From the NCBI RefSeq assembly GCF_900100335.1, contig NZ_FNFE01000002.1:744001-808000 (forward strand): 64,000 nucleotides of DNA, written 5' to 3'. Numbering within the stretch: position 1 is the stretch's first letter; each line of letters starts with the position of its first letter. The translations under genes were made by a program, and so were the position numbers. Positions 17,607 to 58,874 of the stretch are shown one piece after another. This stretch comes from Natronorubrum texcoconense (GTDB lineage: Archaea > Halobacteriota > Halobacteria > Halobacteriales > Natrialbaceae). The notes under the pieces were generated by a model. The model saw nothing but the letters and a program-made list of their open reading frames with translations, did no database searches and was not told where the DNA came from.

Positions 17607-17696
17607 ACAGCGATACTACCCGACGAGTGTGGAAAAGTGACACACCGGCAGGCGCAACGGGGACTAAGTCCACGTTCGACTGAACAAACCACGTGC

Positions 17697-17826
17697 GGTG
17701 GCGCGCGCTGAGCCGCGGTGAACCGACGGTGAACCGCGGCCCGAATATGCGCGAGGGATGAGTGAGCGACTGTAAGGAGCGAACGAATCGGTTGGGGAGG
17801 ACGTGGAACCCATCGCCGCCAGCGGC
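17697..17826 (+). ncRNA. Putative structured RNA element, copy A
   Basis: It starts with GGTGGCGCGCGCTG (17697-17710), then a hairpin of GCCGCGGT (17712-17719) with ACCGCGGC (17733-17740). A 52-base block (17757-17808) follows, and a small terminal hairpin GCCGC/GCGGC (17815-17826). Copy B at 36846-37031 has the same order. The 14-mer is identical and the 52-base block has one mismatch, yet the hairpin arms differ at three positions that all keep pairing. No protein frame is shared. Strand is chosen so that the blocks read in the same order; the true transcript strand is not proven. A mobile palindromic repeat is the alternative. Confidence 0.5.
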
Positions 17827-17883
17827 AGCAACACACTCGTTCTGACTAACCCCCATCGAAACAGCATCGTTCACTAAGTAGGT

Positions 17884-18405
17884 CTATTGATCGGCTGACT
17901 CACCGCAGTCCGATTGAAAGAAACGAAGCCCTCGTGGCGAACTCATCCGCTGAGAGTATAAAAATGACTTTCCACTCGCGATCAGGAGGACGAATCCACC
18001 GACTAATGTCAAGTACAGACCAGTCCCTGCAATAAACATTCCCGTCACTCCGTACTGAGTGAAAAAGAACACTAACGAGAGCACGACCGAGACGGTTCCG
18101 ACAACCGTTCTAAATGCTTCGCTGCTAATCCACCGAATTTCGATCAGTATTCCGAGCGCAGCAATAACTGCAAGTACAAGCGTTACGAGTCCATACGTTT
18201 CCGTCCCTGATCCCATACCCGCGATCTTGACTAGATGGATGTACTCGTACGTCGGATTCGTGATGACCCACGGAAAGTACGCACCGAGACCGAGCAAACA
18301 GAGCCCCGCCCATACTATGACTTTCGAAGATGGGACCACACCATCATGTGACCTATCTAAAATATAGTCTTTTCGTGTAATTAGGAAGGGATCTGTACCG
18401 ACCAT
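17884..18405 (-). CDS. Orphan four-helix membrane protein
   Basis: 173 residues with about four hydrophobic helices (about 28-47, 62-88, 98-118, 122-146) and a polar tail. DNA is clearly AT-richer than its neighbours and codon use is less GC-biased, suggesting recent acquisition. No family recognised. The adjacent 18406-18681 gap is also AT-rich and holds no gene I can support. Confidence 0.55.
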   Translation of the reverse strand: MVGTDPFLITRKDYILDRSHDGVVPSSKVIVWAGLCLLGLGAYFPWVITNPTYEYIHLVKIAGMGSGTETYGLVTLVLAVIAALGILIEIRWISSEAFRTVVGTVSVVLSLVFFFTQYGVTGMFIAGTGLYLTLVGGFVLLIASGKSFLYSQRMSSPRGLRFFQSDCGESADQ

Positions 18406-18681
18406 TGCACTTCTCCACTCACTGAACGAACTCGCTGCCTGTACGGTGATGAACGGCTGCTGAATACATATTCATTATTTGGAATGAGTAACGCTGTCTG
18501 TAACTGGTAGAGTGTCCACTGATCAGTTTGTATCTGTAGTGTGTGTCCCGTACCTTGAGCGATCACAAGTGCCCGTGACCCGACGAGAACGCGCTGTAGA
18601 CCTCACAGATTCGACCTACCTCCGATACGAAGCATGCTGATCGCTCGAGCGAACACGACGAGTCTCCGAGCCCGACCAGTG

Positions 18682-19497
18682 TCAGACACCCGTCCGAAAC
18701 GACAGATCGAGCGACGGCGCAGAGTGCGTCAGCGATCCCATCGAGATGACGTCGACGCCCGTCGCGGCGTACGCCGCAACCGTCTCGAGCGTGATTCCCC
18801 CGCTCGCCTCGGCCAGTACGCCGTCGTACGCCGCGAGCAGGTCGACGGCGGCCCCGATCTCTTCGGGCGTCATATTATCCAACAGGACGATATCCGCACC
18901 GGCCTCGGCGGCCCGCGGCGCGTCCTCGACGGACTCGACCTCGACGTCGAGTTTCGTCGCGAACGAGGTCCGCTCCCGAAAGTGCGAAACTGCGCCCTCG
19001 AGTCCCATCTCGGCGAGATGGTTGTCCTTCACCATCACCATGTGAGAGAGATCGAGTCGATGGGTGTCCCCGCCGCCGGCGACGACGGCGCGTTTCTCGA
19101 GCCCCCGAAGCCCGGGCGTCGTCTTGCGAGTCGCGGCGATCCGCACGTCGCCGGATTCGGTGCGGGCGCGGTCAACTACCCGTCGCGTCCGCGTCGCGAT
19201 TCCCGACGCGTGACCCGCGAGGTTGACAGCGACGCGTTCGCCCCGCAAAACCTCGCGTGCGGGCCCCTCGACGCGGAGGAGTTCGTCGCCGGGTTCGAGT
19301 TGAGCCCCATCGTCGAGCGACTCGAGCACGTCGACGCCGAGATAGTCGAAGACGGCCGTCGCGGCCTCGAGACCCGCGACGACGCCGGAGTCCTTCGCGA
19401 CGAGGCGGCCGGTCGTCTCGCCCGGGACCTGATTCGTCACGTCGTGGTGGCCGACGTCCTCGCGGAGCCAGCGTTCGACCTGTGCGTTCGTGATCAT
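18682..19497 (-). CDS. nadC: Nicotinate-nucleotide diphosphorylase (carboxylating)
   Basis: 271 residues. It converts quinolinate and PRPP to nicotinate mononucleotide, CO2 and PPi. Recognised by GERVAVNLAGHASGIAT (about 84-100), ATRKTTPGLR (about 120-129), HMVMVKDNHL with the catalytic Lys, and VLLDNMTPEE / EASGGI in the barrel. Third gene of nadA-nadB-nadC; 6 bases separate it from nadB. Confidence 0.96.
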   Translation of the reverse strand: MITNAQVERWLREDVGHHDVTNQVPGETTGRLVAKDSGVVAGLEAATAVFDYLGVDVLESLDDGAQLEPGDELLRVEGPAREVLRGERVAVNLAGHASGIATRTRRVVDRARTESGDVRIAATRKTTPGLRGLEKRAVVAGGGDTHRLDLSHMVMVKDNHLAEMGLEGAVSHFRERTSFATKLDVEVESVEDAPRAAEAGADIVLLDNMTPEEIGAAVDLLAAYDGVLAEASGGITLETVAAYAATGVDVISMGSLTHSAPSLDLSFRTGV

Positions 19498-26503: not shown

Positions 26504-27019
26504 TGACCAACCTATCAGACGACTCGAGCTCGAATCACGACAGTGAGGAAGACGTTCTCCACTCAGAGGACAGTACCCATCCCCGTATCGAGTTACTCCA
26601 TCACATTGCGGCAGAAATCGCCAGGTGTTCGGCCGAGACGGCGGTCTACGCACCGTGATCACCGCCACGTACGACCTGTTCGACGTTCGATACGCAGTCA
26701 TCGTCATTCGCAATGGCGGCCGGTGGATCACGAACACGAGTTCGCTACCGGACAACGACAGATGTGTCCAACAGGTTCCACTCACCGGCTCCCAACTCAA
26801 CGCAGTAATCGGTTAAAACGAGACGGGCGTTATCGACAACGTCACGGGGACAGTCAATGACACGTCCGTCGAGCGTGGAAAAGCACTCTGTACACCGATT
26901 GGCGAGGCGGGGGTGTTTCAACTCATCACTGACGGCGACGGATTTAATGTGGATGGTACCCACTATATGAGCTCCTCGGGTGGATCGTAGACGCTCGACT
27001 TGATTTCCTGTCACTATAG
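26503..27019 (+). pseudogene. Decayed gene downstream of the kinase (two frameshifts and an in-frame stop)
   Basis: ATG 26503 begins an acidic leader followed by IELLHHIAAEIAR. The reading must jump frame near 26630 to continue as GRDGGLRTVITATYDLFDV and VIRNGGRWITNTSSLPDN. A TAA at 26814-26816 interrupts, but the same frame goes on with GVIDNVTGTVNDTSVERGKA and FQLITDGDGF. A second shift near 26965 restores ELLGWIVDARLDFLS to a TAG at 27017. The order of coherent segments shows one former protein of about 170 residues. I do not recognise the family; coupling to the kinase (TAATG) suggests a signalling partner. Confidence 0.6.
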
Positions 27020-27024
27020 TGACA
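27009..27024. repeat. 16-bp perfect palindrome at the end of the broken gene
   Basis: TGTCACTATAGTGACA spans the stop region of the pseudogene. Just downstream, an imperfect inverted repeat (about 27035-27051 with 27061-27076, arms around TGTACAC and GATCGCA) forms a second hairpin that includes part of the 42-base dispersed repeat. Confidence 0.5.
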
Positions 27025-27055
27025 ACTAAAACGATGTACACACTGATCGCAACGC

Positions 27056-27097
27056 CGTCCTGCGATCGGGTGTACAGTGACGCTCAGTGGCTACTAT
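27056..27097 (+). repeat. Dispersed 42-bp repeat, copy 1
   Basis: Matches 58833-58874 at 38 of 42 bases in the same orientation; flanks do not match. Core bases include CGTCCTGCGATCG and GTGGCTACTAT. It lies in the decayed zone between 27.02 and 27.32 kb, where I see only gene fragments. Confidence 0.55.
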
Positions 27098-36069: not shown

Positions 36070-36795
36070 ATGCCAGTACTCGAAGACGACGTCGTGATCG
36101 TCACCGGCGCGAGCCGCGGTCTCGGGAAGTCGATGGTCGAACGCTTTTCGGCGGAAGGGGCTCGAGTCGTCCTCACCGCACGCGACGAGGACCGATTGAG
36201 CGAGGTCGCCGCCGACCTTCCGACCGAGTCGCTCGTCGTGCCCGCGGACGTCCGAGACAGCGACGCGGTCGCAAACGTAATCGAACAGACGATCGAGGCA
36301 TTCGGTCGCATCGACACGCTCGTCAACAACGCGGGCGTGGCGCCGATGGATTCGGACGGCGGTCTCGTGAACGTCACCGACGAGGAGTGGGAGGCCGTCC
36401 TCGAGATCAATCTCACCGGCGTCTTCTGCTTTACCCGCGAAGTCCTACCCCACATGTACGACCAAGAACGGGGGAACGTGATCAACATCTCCTCGGGGCT
36501 CGGCCGGCGAGCGATGGCCGGCGTCGGCCCCTACGTGAGTTCGAAGTGGGGACTCGAGGGACTGACCCGAACGACGGCGCTCGAGGGCGAGGAGCACGGC
36601 GTCAACGCCAACGCACTCGATCCGGGCGGTCGGGTCGACACCGACATCTGGGCGCACCTGCCCGACGAAGAGCGCGAGCAGATTCTCGATCCGGACGTGA
36701 TGGACGACGCGGCCGTTCTGCTCGCCGCCCAGGGCCCCGACGGTGTCAGCGGCGAGTCGATGGATGCCGAGGACTGGGAGGAACGACTCGGGTAG
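36070..36795 (+). CDS. SDR family oxidoreductase
   Basis: 241 residues. TGASRGLG near 14-21, NNAGVAP near 88-94, ISSGLGRR with the catalytic Ser, and YVSSKWG with Tyr and Lys define a classical SDR, FabG-like. LTARDED after beta-2 suggests NADP binding. Third SDR in the window, unrelated in context. Substrate unknown. Copy B of the structured element begins 51 bases after its stop. Confidence 0.9.
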   Translation: MPVLEDDVVIVTGASRGLGKSMVERFSAEGARVVLTARDEDRLSEVAADLPTESLVVPADVRDSDAVANVIEQTIEAFGRIDTLVNNAGVAPMDSDGGLVNVTDEEWEAVLEINLTGVFCFTREVLPHMYDQERGNVINISSGLGRRAMAGVGPYVSSKWGLEGLTRTTALEGEEHGVNANALDPGGRVDTDIWAHLPDEEREQILDPDVMDDAAVLLAAQGPDGVSGESMDAEDWEERLG

Positions 36796-36845
36796 TCGAC
36801 AGTTCGAACGACCACCGTCTCCGTTCGGATCGGTACGCTACTGCG

Positions 36846-37031
36846 GGTGGCGCGCGCTGGATCACGGTGACCGATAGGGAACCGTGATCAGAAGCCGTGC
36901 GAGGTCGTCGCGAGTGAAACGAGCGACTGCGTGGAAGACGCGGAGCGTCTTCCTATGGATGAGTGAGCGACTGTAAGGAGCGAACGAATCGGATGGGGAG
37001 GACGTGGAAATCCCTGTTGCCATGATAGCAA
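36846..37031 (+). ncRNA. Putative structured RNA element, copy B
   Basis: GGTGGCGCGCGCTG (36846-36859) is followed by hairpin GATCACGGT (36860-36868) / ACCGTGATC (36881-36889). Then comes an insert of about 53 bases absent from copy A, with two more hairpins (GTCGC/GCGAC, and GAAGACGC-GGA-GCGTCTTC). The conserved 52-base block follows (36958-37009, one mismatch to copy A), and a last small hairpin TTGC/GCAA (37017-37031). It lies between the 3' ends of two convergent genes, so it is not simply a 5' regulatory site. Strand assigned by comparison with copy A. Confidence 0.5.
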
Positions 37032-37072
37032 AGTAGTACTCTTTTCGTTGAGATTTCCCTGTTCCCGTTCTC

Positions 37073-37456
37073 TTAGCTGTACGCCTCGAGCGCGTCCCAC
37101 TCGCGTCGCATGAGTTCGCGGACGCCGTGCTCGAGTATTCCCTCACCGAGTGAGGTCGCCCGGTAGTACGAGTACAGCCCGTCGCTATCGGGATCCTTCC
37201 GTTTTCTGTTCTCGACGAGGCCGACGTCGACGAGTTCGTCGAGGTGATAGTGTAACGTGTTCGATCGGATCTCGAGGCCGTCGCGCAGTTCGCTCGCGTG
37301 CTGTGGCCCCTCCTCGACCAGCGTATTGAGTACGCGAAACCGCGTTTCGTTCCCAATCGAGCGCTGCATCTCGAGGTACTCCTCCAGGCTCAAGATGCTC
37401 TGCTCCGGAAGCAATTCGTCCCCGGACCGTCGTGCCGAGCGCTCGGACTCTGCCAT
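37073..37456 (-). CDS. Winged-helix transcriptional regulator (ArsR/MarR-like)
   Basis: 127 residues. An acidic-basic leader is followed by RSIGNETRFRVLNTLVEEGPQHASELRDGLEIRSNTLHYHLDELVDVGLV (about 31-80), a classic helix-turn-helix with recognition helix SNTLHYHLDEL. The wing is KRKDPDSDGLYSYYRAT. No metal-binding cysteines. Divergent from the DUF7509-like gene at 37552; GCTTAAGC at about 37480 is a TATA-like site 27 bases before its ATG. It may regulate its divergent neighbour (inference from layout). Confidence 0.85.
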   Translation of the reverse strand: MAESERSARRSGDELLPEQSILSLEEYLEMQRSIGNETRFRVLNTLVEEGPQHASELRDGLEIRSNTLHYHLDELVDVGLVENRKRKDPDSDGLYSYYRATSLGEGILEHGVRELMRREWDALEAYS

Positions 37457-57476: not shown

Positions 57477-58676
57477 ATGGCTGAGGTCCGAGCGTGGCAA
57501 GATCGGCTTCCCGACAACTGGCGACGGATCCTCTCGACCCGGGCAGCCGTCGCGCTCGCGCTGACCGTCGCGCTGCTCTCGGTTGCGACCGCGATCGTCA
57601 ACATCGGTACCGACGTCGTCTACGGCCCGCTCGCGCCGTACCTTCCCGACGCCGTCCAGGACGCGGCTGGCTTTACCGGCGCGCTCACGGGCTTTCTGAT
57701 GGTCGGCAGCGCGCTCGCACTGCGCCGCGGACTCCGCGTCGGCTGGTGGGCGACGTTTCTGCTCCTCCCGCTAACCGCGGCACAGGGGCTCCTCCAGGCG
57801 AGTCAGTACTCGCTGCCGCTGATCGTGGTCTCGCTCGTCGCGATGCCGGTGCTCCTCGTCAGTCGAAAACGGTTCAGGAAGCCGCTCGAGCTCGGGACGA
57901 CCGAGATCGCAGCCGGATCGGCCCTGCTCGGCGTGCAGCTGTACGGAACCATCGGCGGCTACGCCCTTCGAGACCACTTCGAGGGCATCGACAGCATCCT
58001 CGACGCCTTCTACTTCACGATAATCACCTCGAGTACGGTCGGCTACGGCGATATCACGCCGGATCCCGACTCGACCGAAGCGATGCTGTTCACGATGTCC
58101 GTCCTCGTCCTCGGCGTGGCCAGTTTCGGTATCGCCGTCGGGGCGCTGGTCGGACCGGCGATTCAGGCGCGGATTACGAAAACACTCGGAAAGATGACCG
58201 ACTCACAGCTCGAACTCCTCGAGGACCACCTTCTCGTCCTCGGCTACGGCGAACTGACGGAACCGATCGTCGACGAACTCGCGGCCAGCGACCGGGAGTT
58301 CGTCGTCGTAACGAACAACCGGGACGTGGCGCCCGCGCTCTCCGATCGAGGAATCCCGGTGGTCACCGGCGATCCAAGCGACAAGGGACCGCTCCGACGG
58401 GCGAAGATCGAGCGCGCGAGGGCGATTCTGGTCGCGACGAATCACGACGCCGAAGACGCGCTCACGATCCTCACCGCCCACCAACTCGCCCCCGAAACCC
58501 GCATCGTCGCCGCCGCAACCGACCGCGAGAACACCGAGAAACTCGAGCGCGCCGGCGCGGACGCGGTGATCAGTCCCTCGGTTTTGGGGGGCCACCTGCT
58601 GGTCCGATCGGCGCTCGGCAGCGACGACACCGAACTGATCGATCGGATCATCGGCACCAACGATAGTAACAACTGA
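57477..58676 (+). CDS. Two-pore-helix K+ channel with TrkA-N (RCK) domain
   Basis: 399 residues. Several N-terminal hydrophobic helices (to about 130), then the pore: FYFTIITSSTVGYGDITPD with the TVGYGD selectivity filter. After a helix a cytoplasmic Rossmann RCK/TrkA-N domain begins with LLVLGYGELTEPIVDEL (about 251-267) and covers VVTNNRDVAPAL. It passes K+ under control of a nucleotide or ion on the RCK ring, a normal task for a salt-in halophile. ATG 57477 rather than GTG 57471. Confidence 0.93.
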   Translation: MAEVRAWQDRLPDNWRRILSTRAAVALALTVALLSVATAIVNIGTDVVYGPLAPYLPDAVQDAAGFTGALTGFLMVGSALALRRGLRVGWWATFLLLPLTAAQGLLQASQYSLPLIVVSLVAMPVLLVSRKRFRKPLELGTTEIAAGSALLGVQLYGTIGGYALRDHFEGIDSILDAFYFTIITSSTVGYGDITPDPDSTEAMLFTMSVLVLGVASFGIAVGALVGPAIQARITKTLGKMTDSQLELLEDHLLVLGYGELTEPIVDELAASDREFVVVTNNRDVAPALSDRGIPVVTGDPSDKGPLRRAKIERARAILVATNHDAEDALTILTAHQLAPETRIVAAATDRENTEKLERAGADAVISPSVLGGHLLVRSALGSDDTELIDRIIGTNDSNN

Positions 58677-58718
58677 AACGGTTTACAGACCGATCGCATA
58701 GCTCGCGGGCCACTACGT

Positions 58719-58761
58719 TCCCCGTTCGCTTTTCCGCGGTTCTCGCTCACTTCGTTCGCTC
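58719..58761 (+). repeat. 43-bp perfect direct repeat, unit 1
   Basis: Identical to 58777-58819; 15 bases separate the two (period 58). The unit begins TCCCCGTTCGCTTTTCC and ends CACTTCGTTCGCTC. Only two units exist, so it is not a CRISPR array. Confidence 0.85.
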
Positions 58762-58776
58762 ACGGGTCGCTTGCGC

Positions 58777-58819
58777 TCCCCGTTCGCTTTTCCGCGGTTC
58801 TCGCTCACTTCGTTCGCTC
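58777..58819 (+). repeat. 43-bp perfect direct repeat, unit 2
   Basis: Exact copy of the preceding unit. It is followed within 14 bases by the dispersed 42-base repeat. Confidence 0.85.
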
Positions 58820-58832
58820 CGAACCGCGCTCC

Positions 58833-58874
58833 CGTCCTGCGATCGAGTGTGCAGTGACGTTCGGTGGCTACTAT
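58833..58874 (+). repeat. Dispersed 42-bp repeat, copy 2
   Basis: Matches 27056-27097 at 38 of 42 bases, same orientation. Both copies sit in non-coding DNA. Confidence 0.6.

Follow-up and report, generated by a model that had tools for sequence, protein, structure and literature searches.

A folded interspersed repeat of Halobacteria, plausibly of mobile type, with exchangeable hairpin arms

In Streptococcus pneumoniae and S. suis, BOX elements are interspersed, intergenic, folded repeats whose end modules are fixed and whose internal stem module, boxB, is optional; they have terminal inverted repeats and target duplications, and in S. suis one boxB module occurs in two different repeat families (PMC3049150). 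REP sequences and REPINs, associated with TnpA_REP, are presented as high-copy intergenic palindromic units that form inverted pairs and whose mobility is presumed to be provided in trans (PMC3116915, PMC8266576). Haloquadratum walsbyi harbors PATEs, which are transposase-free repeats with palindromes, and SMR-A, small repeats inserting into the palindromes of other repeats (PMC3119063). Prokaryotic MITEs, in turn, have been reviewed as short, non-coding, repeated and folded sequences whose presence is variable (PMC10969869). Here we describe a real haloarchaeal repeat family that is apparently undescribed so far, as no account of it was found in the non-subscription literature searched.

The window, that is, the whole stretch of 64,000 nucleotides of Natronorubrum texcoconense DNA that was analysed, contains two copies of the family only, A and B, both on the + strand. 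A 36-nt block matches the window twice against 0.00 matches expected, and the core covariance model finds the same two copies, with 109 and 62 bits. Copy A (17695-17810, +), located by the 36-nt block and the core model, is a short form devoid of module M1, and its fold energy taken alone is unexceptional (z -0.8). It is borne by a segment of about 1 kb (17661-18689), and the orthologous site lacks this segment both in the sister species (G003) and in another species (G009); for this reason, the site of copy A yields no clean element ends. Copy B keeps the order of copy A and adds to it two further hairpins at one defined place, just as the first-pass annotation had proposed. This insert, M1, comprises 53 nt (36904-36956, +), is wanting in copy A and sits precisely where the first hairpin domain adjoins a 52-nt block.

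As a whole folded element, copy B spans 36838-37036 on the + strand, the model match covering 36894-37011. It is flanked by converging genes, lying 50 nt past an SDR gene (36070-36795, +) and preceding a second gene (37073-37456, -) that, judged by eye from its sequence, looks like an HTH regulator. The conserved head GGTGGCGCGCGCTG (36846-36859) carries the 5' strand of helix P1 (36851-36856) and is followed by the P2 arm GATCACGGT/ACCGTGATC (36860-36889), which has an internal tandem G.A pair, and by the 3' strand of P1, CGTGCG (36896-36901). Then come the two hairpins of M1 (36907-36927 and 36933-36953). Hairpin a is formed by GTCGC (36907-36911) and GCGAC (36923-36927) and is topped by a tandem G.A pair and a GT/AC step; in hairpin b, GGAAGACGC (36933-36941) pairs with GCGTCTTCC (36945-36953) across a 3-nt loop. 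Beyond the insert stand the P4 arm (36958-36990), composed of GAT/ATC plus 2-bp steps with tandem G.A pairs between them, and the conserved tail TCGGATGGGGAGGACGTGG (36989-37007). The MFE fold of copy B further predicts a 3' hairpin GATGGGGA/TCCCTGTT (36992-37022), pairing of GCCA in the 3' part with TGGC of the head, and an outer closing stem, present in this fold only, between CUAC (about 36838) and GUAG (about 37036). Measured against this stem, the extent initially given to the element was slightly short. The + strand of copy B adopts a closed multi-arm fold that none of 200 dinucleotide shuffles equals (z -4.5), and the fold of the - strand is weaker (z -3.4 against dinucleotide shuffles).

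Throughout the family, a core of ~110 nt shows a conserved one-strand fold in which P1 carries P2 and is followed by P4 and by an invariant tail. In 40 diverse short copies, the 6 bp of P1 are paired in 100% of cells, P4 consists of GAT/ATC and then 2-bp steps alternating with tandem G.A pairs, and a single G.A column pair of this helix is kept in 40/40 copies. The three core helices covary: 76 cells are changed on both sides, compared with 22.6 in shuffles, and the covariation score reaches 0.427 versus 0.230, values attained by 0 of 500 shuffles for either measure; the signal collapses when helix partners are slid. The core helices hold 62 G.T cells as against 4 A.C cells, which indicates that the fold acts as a single strand, on the + strand. 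The hairpins of M1 also covary (18 cells changed on both sides versus 3.8, 0/500 shuffles, 27 copies). A pseudoknot between CCACGT and ACGTGG was considered as well; it pairs in many Natronorubrum copies, but covariation is missing in others, and it was dropped. As for the nature of the folded strand, three-nucleotide loops are common in DNA hairpins, and RNA tends towards tetraloops. Strong module hairpins nearly always have 3-nt loops (each palindrome being counted on both strands), a feature that points to DNA only suggestively, and we hold folding in single-stranded DNA and folding in RNA to be equally likely.

Among 119 parsed copies, a set from which those with unusual arms were left out, the insert has a length of 0 in 98, of 53-54 nt in 14 and other lengths in 7, its place always being flanked by GYGYGAG and GGATGA. 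A set of 27 copies with an insert of 51-53 nt was gathered at this same junction, between P1 and P4. No arbitrary truncation, the outcome named at first as refuting a variable stem region, was seen among the copies examined, and modular insertion of stems is borne out by these lengths, by the covariation of the insert hairpins and by the orthologous site described below. A second two-hairpin module of ~60 nt, M2, sits in P4 of some copies and, by eye, within an M1 hairpin loop in others. M2 is also found outside the core family, in two unrelated repeat families, one with a TTTTTGGTGGAGATTTTTG motif and the other with inverted ends, and it adjoins 2 of the 18 TnpB genes of the genome.

Several observations were made alongside these. 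The inverted-end repeat just named, likewise haloarchaeal (ATAGTNACAACT...AGTGGCTACTAT), has two copies in the window, a bare one of 82 nt (27016-27097) and another (58663-58874) with hairpin modules, ~130 nt in all, at a single internal position, following the same logic as copy B. A further repeat family has conserved TTTTTGGTGGAGATTTTTGCG and GCGGAAAAAGG blocks around M2 (loci L330, L331, L332, L335 and L336), and several of its copies lie directly past gene ends in a terminator-like manner. The M1 hairpin sequence GGAAGACGCGGAGCGTCTTCC was also encountered at positions 413-446 of locus L040, in a stretch apparently without the core element.

The repeat is interspersed, with about 60 copies each in the genome holding the window (G000, 4.64 Mb) and in its sister G003. 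A sequence search of the former with copy B gave 61 pieces, and the core covariance model gives 63 matches in G000 and 62 in G003, totals that include some copies twice. Of 292 Halobacteria genomes sampled, 174 have a match, spread over 47 of 77 genera; as at most 12 candidates were scored per genome in this sample, per-genome copy counts are lower bounds, and the weak matches near 1e-4 to 1e-6, for the most part from a single genus (g20), could be false positives. All 17 matching genomes of a phylum-wide sample belong to one order, none lying outside it. The repeat core is identical across genera, and a 21-nt pattern from the tail region has exact matches in Natrinema, Natronococcus, Halorussus, Haladaptatus and Halobium, as well as Halogranum, Halobaculum, Salinarchaeum and others. 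At the Rfam gathering score, the window returned a tRNA alone and neither copy matched; with a relaxed E-value, selected copies gave nothing credible, a single weak match falling far below the gathering score. Phages gave no match to the repeat, and two viral contigs gave weak matches only.

Of 189 copies, only a few lie outside intergenic DNA. There are 62 between convergent genes and 22 between divergent genes, and within tandem gene pairs 42 are sense and 40 antisense, orientation bias being absent. This distribution supports, for the family as a whole, the early argument that the place of copy B between converging genes speaks against an mRNA leader. Several neighbors look like genes of acyl-CoA or hydroxyacyl-CoA metabolism (e.g., L298, L307, L309 and L318), which may be due to chance, because such genes form large paralogous families. 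Copies less than 500 nt apart are always inverted (28 tail-to-tail, 4 head-to-head and 0 in the same direction).

On balance, we favor the reading that copy B belongs to a non-autonomous, single-strand-folding repeat of mobile type, BOX/REPIN-like, with exchangeable hairpin arms, because the copies are dispersed, pair in inverted fashion and have modules in common with other repeat families. The repeat would be, or would formerly have been, mobilized by an enzyme acting in trans and recognizing the folded strand, which could be single-stranded DNA, as with HUH/Y1 transposases, or an RNA copy. Copies might exchange modules such as M1 by recombining through the invariant blocks on either side of each insertion point. 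Against the mobile reading, the search described below found no cognate transposase, neither a clean target-site duplication nor exact ends could be defined, many copies are old, and the G.U-type pairs that abound in P1 are equally compatible with RNA.

The comparison of orthologous sites bears both on the mobile-type reading and on its main competitor. An orthologous copy in G003 exists for 32 loci of G000. At the locus of copy B, the sister species has the element with exactly M1 missing and differs in P2 by a compensatory G-C to A-T change, and the nearby non-coding flanks hardly align; at other orthologous sites, with flanks aligning, the core is kept and M1, M2 or the entire P2 arm differs. 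In G009 the site of copy B is empty, the two genes lying 28 nt apart by alignment, and for two copies of G003 the matching site of G000 is short and empty. Empty sites were located, but their flanks are too diverged for placing the element ends or a target-site duplication. At a third site (L268, L359), the element is present in G003 and an unrelated insertion in G000, with common flanking motifs CAGTAGA ... GCGTAGC. Across 34 usable copies, orthologs are 93% identical within the 19-nt tail motif, as against 80-83% in the near flanks and 90% in the wider, mostly coding flanks; degenerate tails were seen in few copies of the two genomes, whose loci had been picked by similarity. Such a combination of many old copies, as the 32 orthologs attest, with few decayed ones suggests selection on the residents, and not idle transposon remains.

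That orthologs preserve the core leaves room for a function as a host RNA. According to this explanation, which we consider doubtful, the copies may belong to a family of structured host non-coding RNAs, either multi-copy small RNAs or protein-binding ones, whose variable arms would be ordinary expansion stems. It is consistent with the covariation on one strand, with a core identical across genera, with the scarcity of decayed copies in the two genomes and with the higher identity of the tail motif relative to the near flanks. Against it stand the search for promoter-like and terminator-like signals, in which neither TATA-like boxes before the copies nor T runs after them rose above shuffle level, the lack of orientation bias, the differences in presence between sister species, the wholesale swapping of arms, the module hairpins common to other repeats and the many genomes of the class without the repeat. 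In its reading of the element as a structured RNA, the first-pass interpretation goes beyond what was shown; such signals are absent, and the copies behave as a dispersed repeat of mobile type. With slightly less conviction still, it may be conjectured that haloarchaea possess class-wide folded single-stranded "building blocks", in which several repeat families would draw on one pool of small hairpin modules, put in and exchanged at fixed points of the tandem-G.A core; selection on the resident copies would maintain the system, as an undescribed RNA or ssDNA-protein machinery.

The search for a mover bears on an improbable third explanation, in which the repeat would be a PATE, i.e., an IS605-type (TnpA/TnpB) derivative retaining structured ends only, and M1 and M2 would resemble the SMR-A inserts of Haloquadratum. 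Apart from orthologs of ordinary genes, no gene family recurs next to the copies, transposases included, and G000 has only two Y1_Tnp genes, each lying at the end of a contig. No terminal inverted repeats appeared in copies aligned with their flanks, and this absence, together with heterogeneous ends, agrees with a PATE, as do the strand-specific folds, the targeting of stems by the inserts and the position of M2 beside two TnpB genes. On the other hand, none of the 18 TnpB loci of the genome is similar to the repeat core or its flanks, and a TTCA.TA end motif common to 11 of 55 copies, direct-repeat-like and at fixed distances, 60-64 nt beyond the tail, is absent from all TnpB loci examined. 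An IS605/TnpB origin was discarded for this missing end similarity. Least probable is an element acting in cis on the upstream gene, as part of its 3'-UTR or as a terminator, for which the location of copy B and many others 20-150 nt after a stop codon and the enrichment of convergent regions could be invoked, and which was rejected on the 42/40 orientation split in tandem pairs, there being also no T-run past the tail.

Archaeal interspersed repeats are poorly charted, and to these the present repeat adds a fold backed by covariation and a very regular tandem-G.A helix, with stem modules seen appearing or vanishing at orthologous sites of sister species. It offers a testable case of how structured repeats acquire arms and of whether single-strand folding drives movement and haloarchaea retain such repeats for a function. 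Like MITEs, it is non-coding, multicopy and variably present; in contrast to them, terminal inverted repeats were not found, nor was a target duplication recognized at the empty sites with their diverged flanks, and its folding is strand-specific. It shares with REP/REPIN the occurrence in inverted pairs, and differs in its much larger, multi-armed fold and in that no Y1 (RAYT) transposase was seen beside its copies. PATEs differ in that the core of the present repeat is unlike the resident TnpB loci, and SMR-A measures ~110 bp with inverted ends (PMC3119063), compared with 53 nt for M1 and ~60 nt for M2, with two hairpins each. The likeness to BOX, taken as an analogy only and assuming no sequence relation to boxA, boxB or boxC, lies in the fixed end modules and the optional internal module; terminal inverted repeats were not found, nor target duplications recognized at diverged empty sites, in the haloarchaeal repeat, whose fold, in a further difference, covaries across a whole archaeal class.
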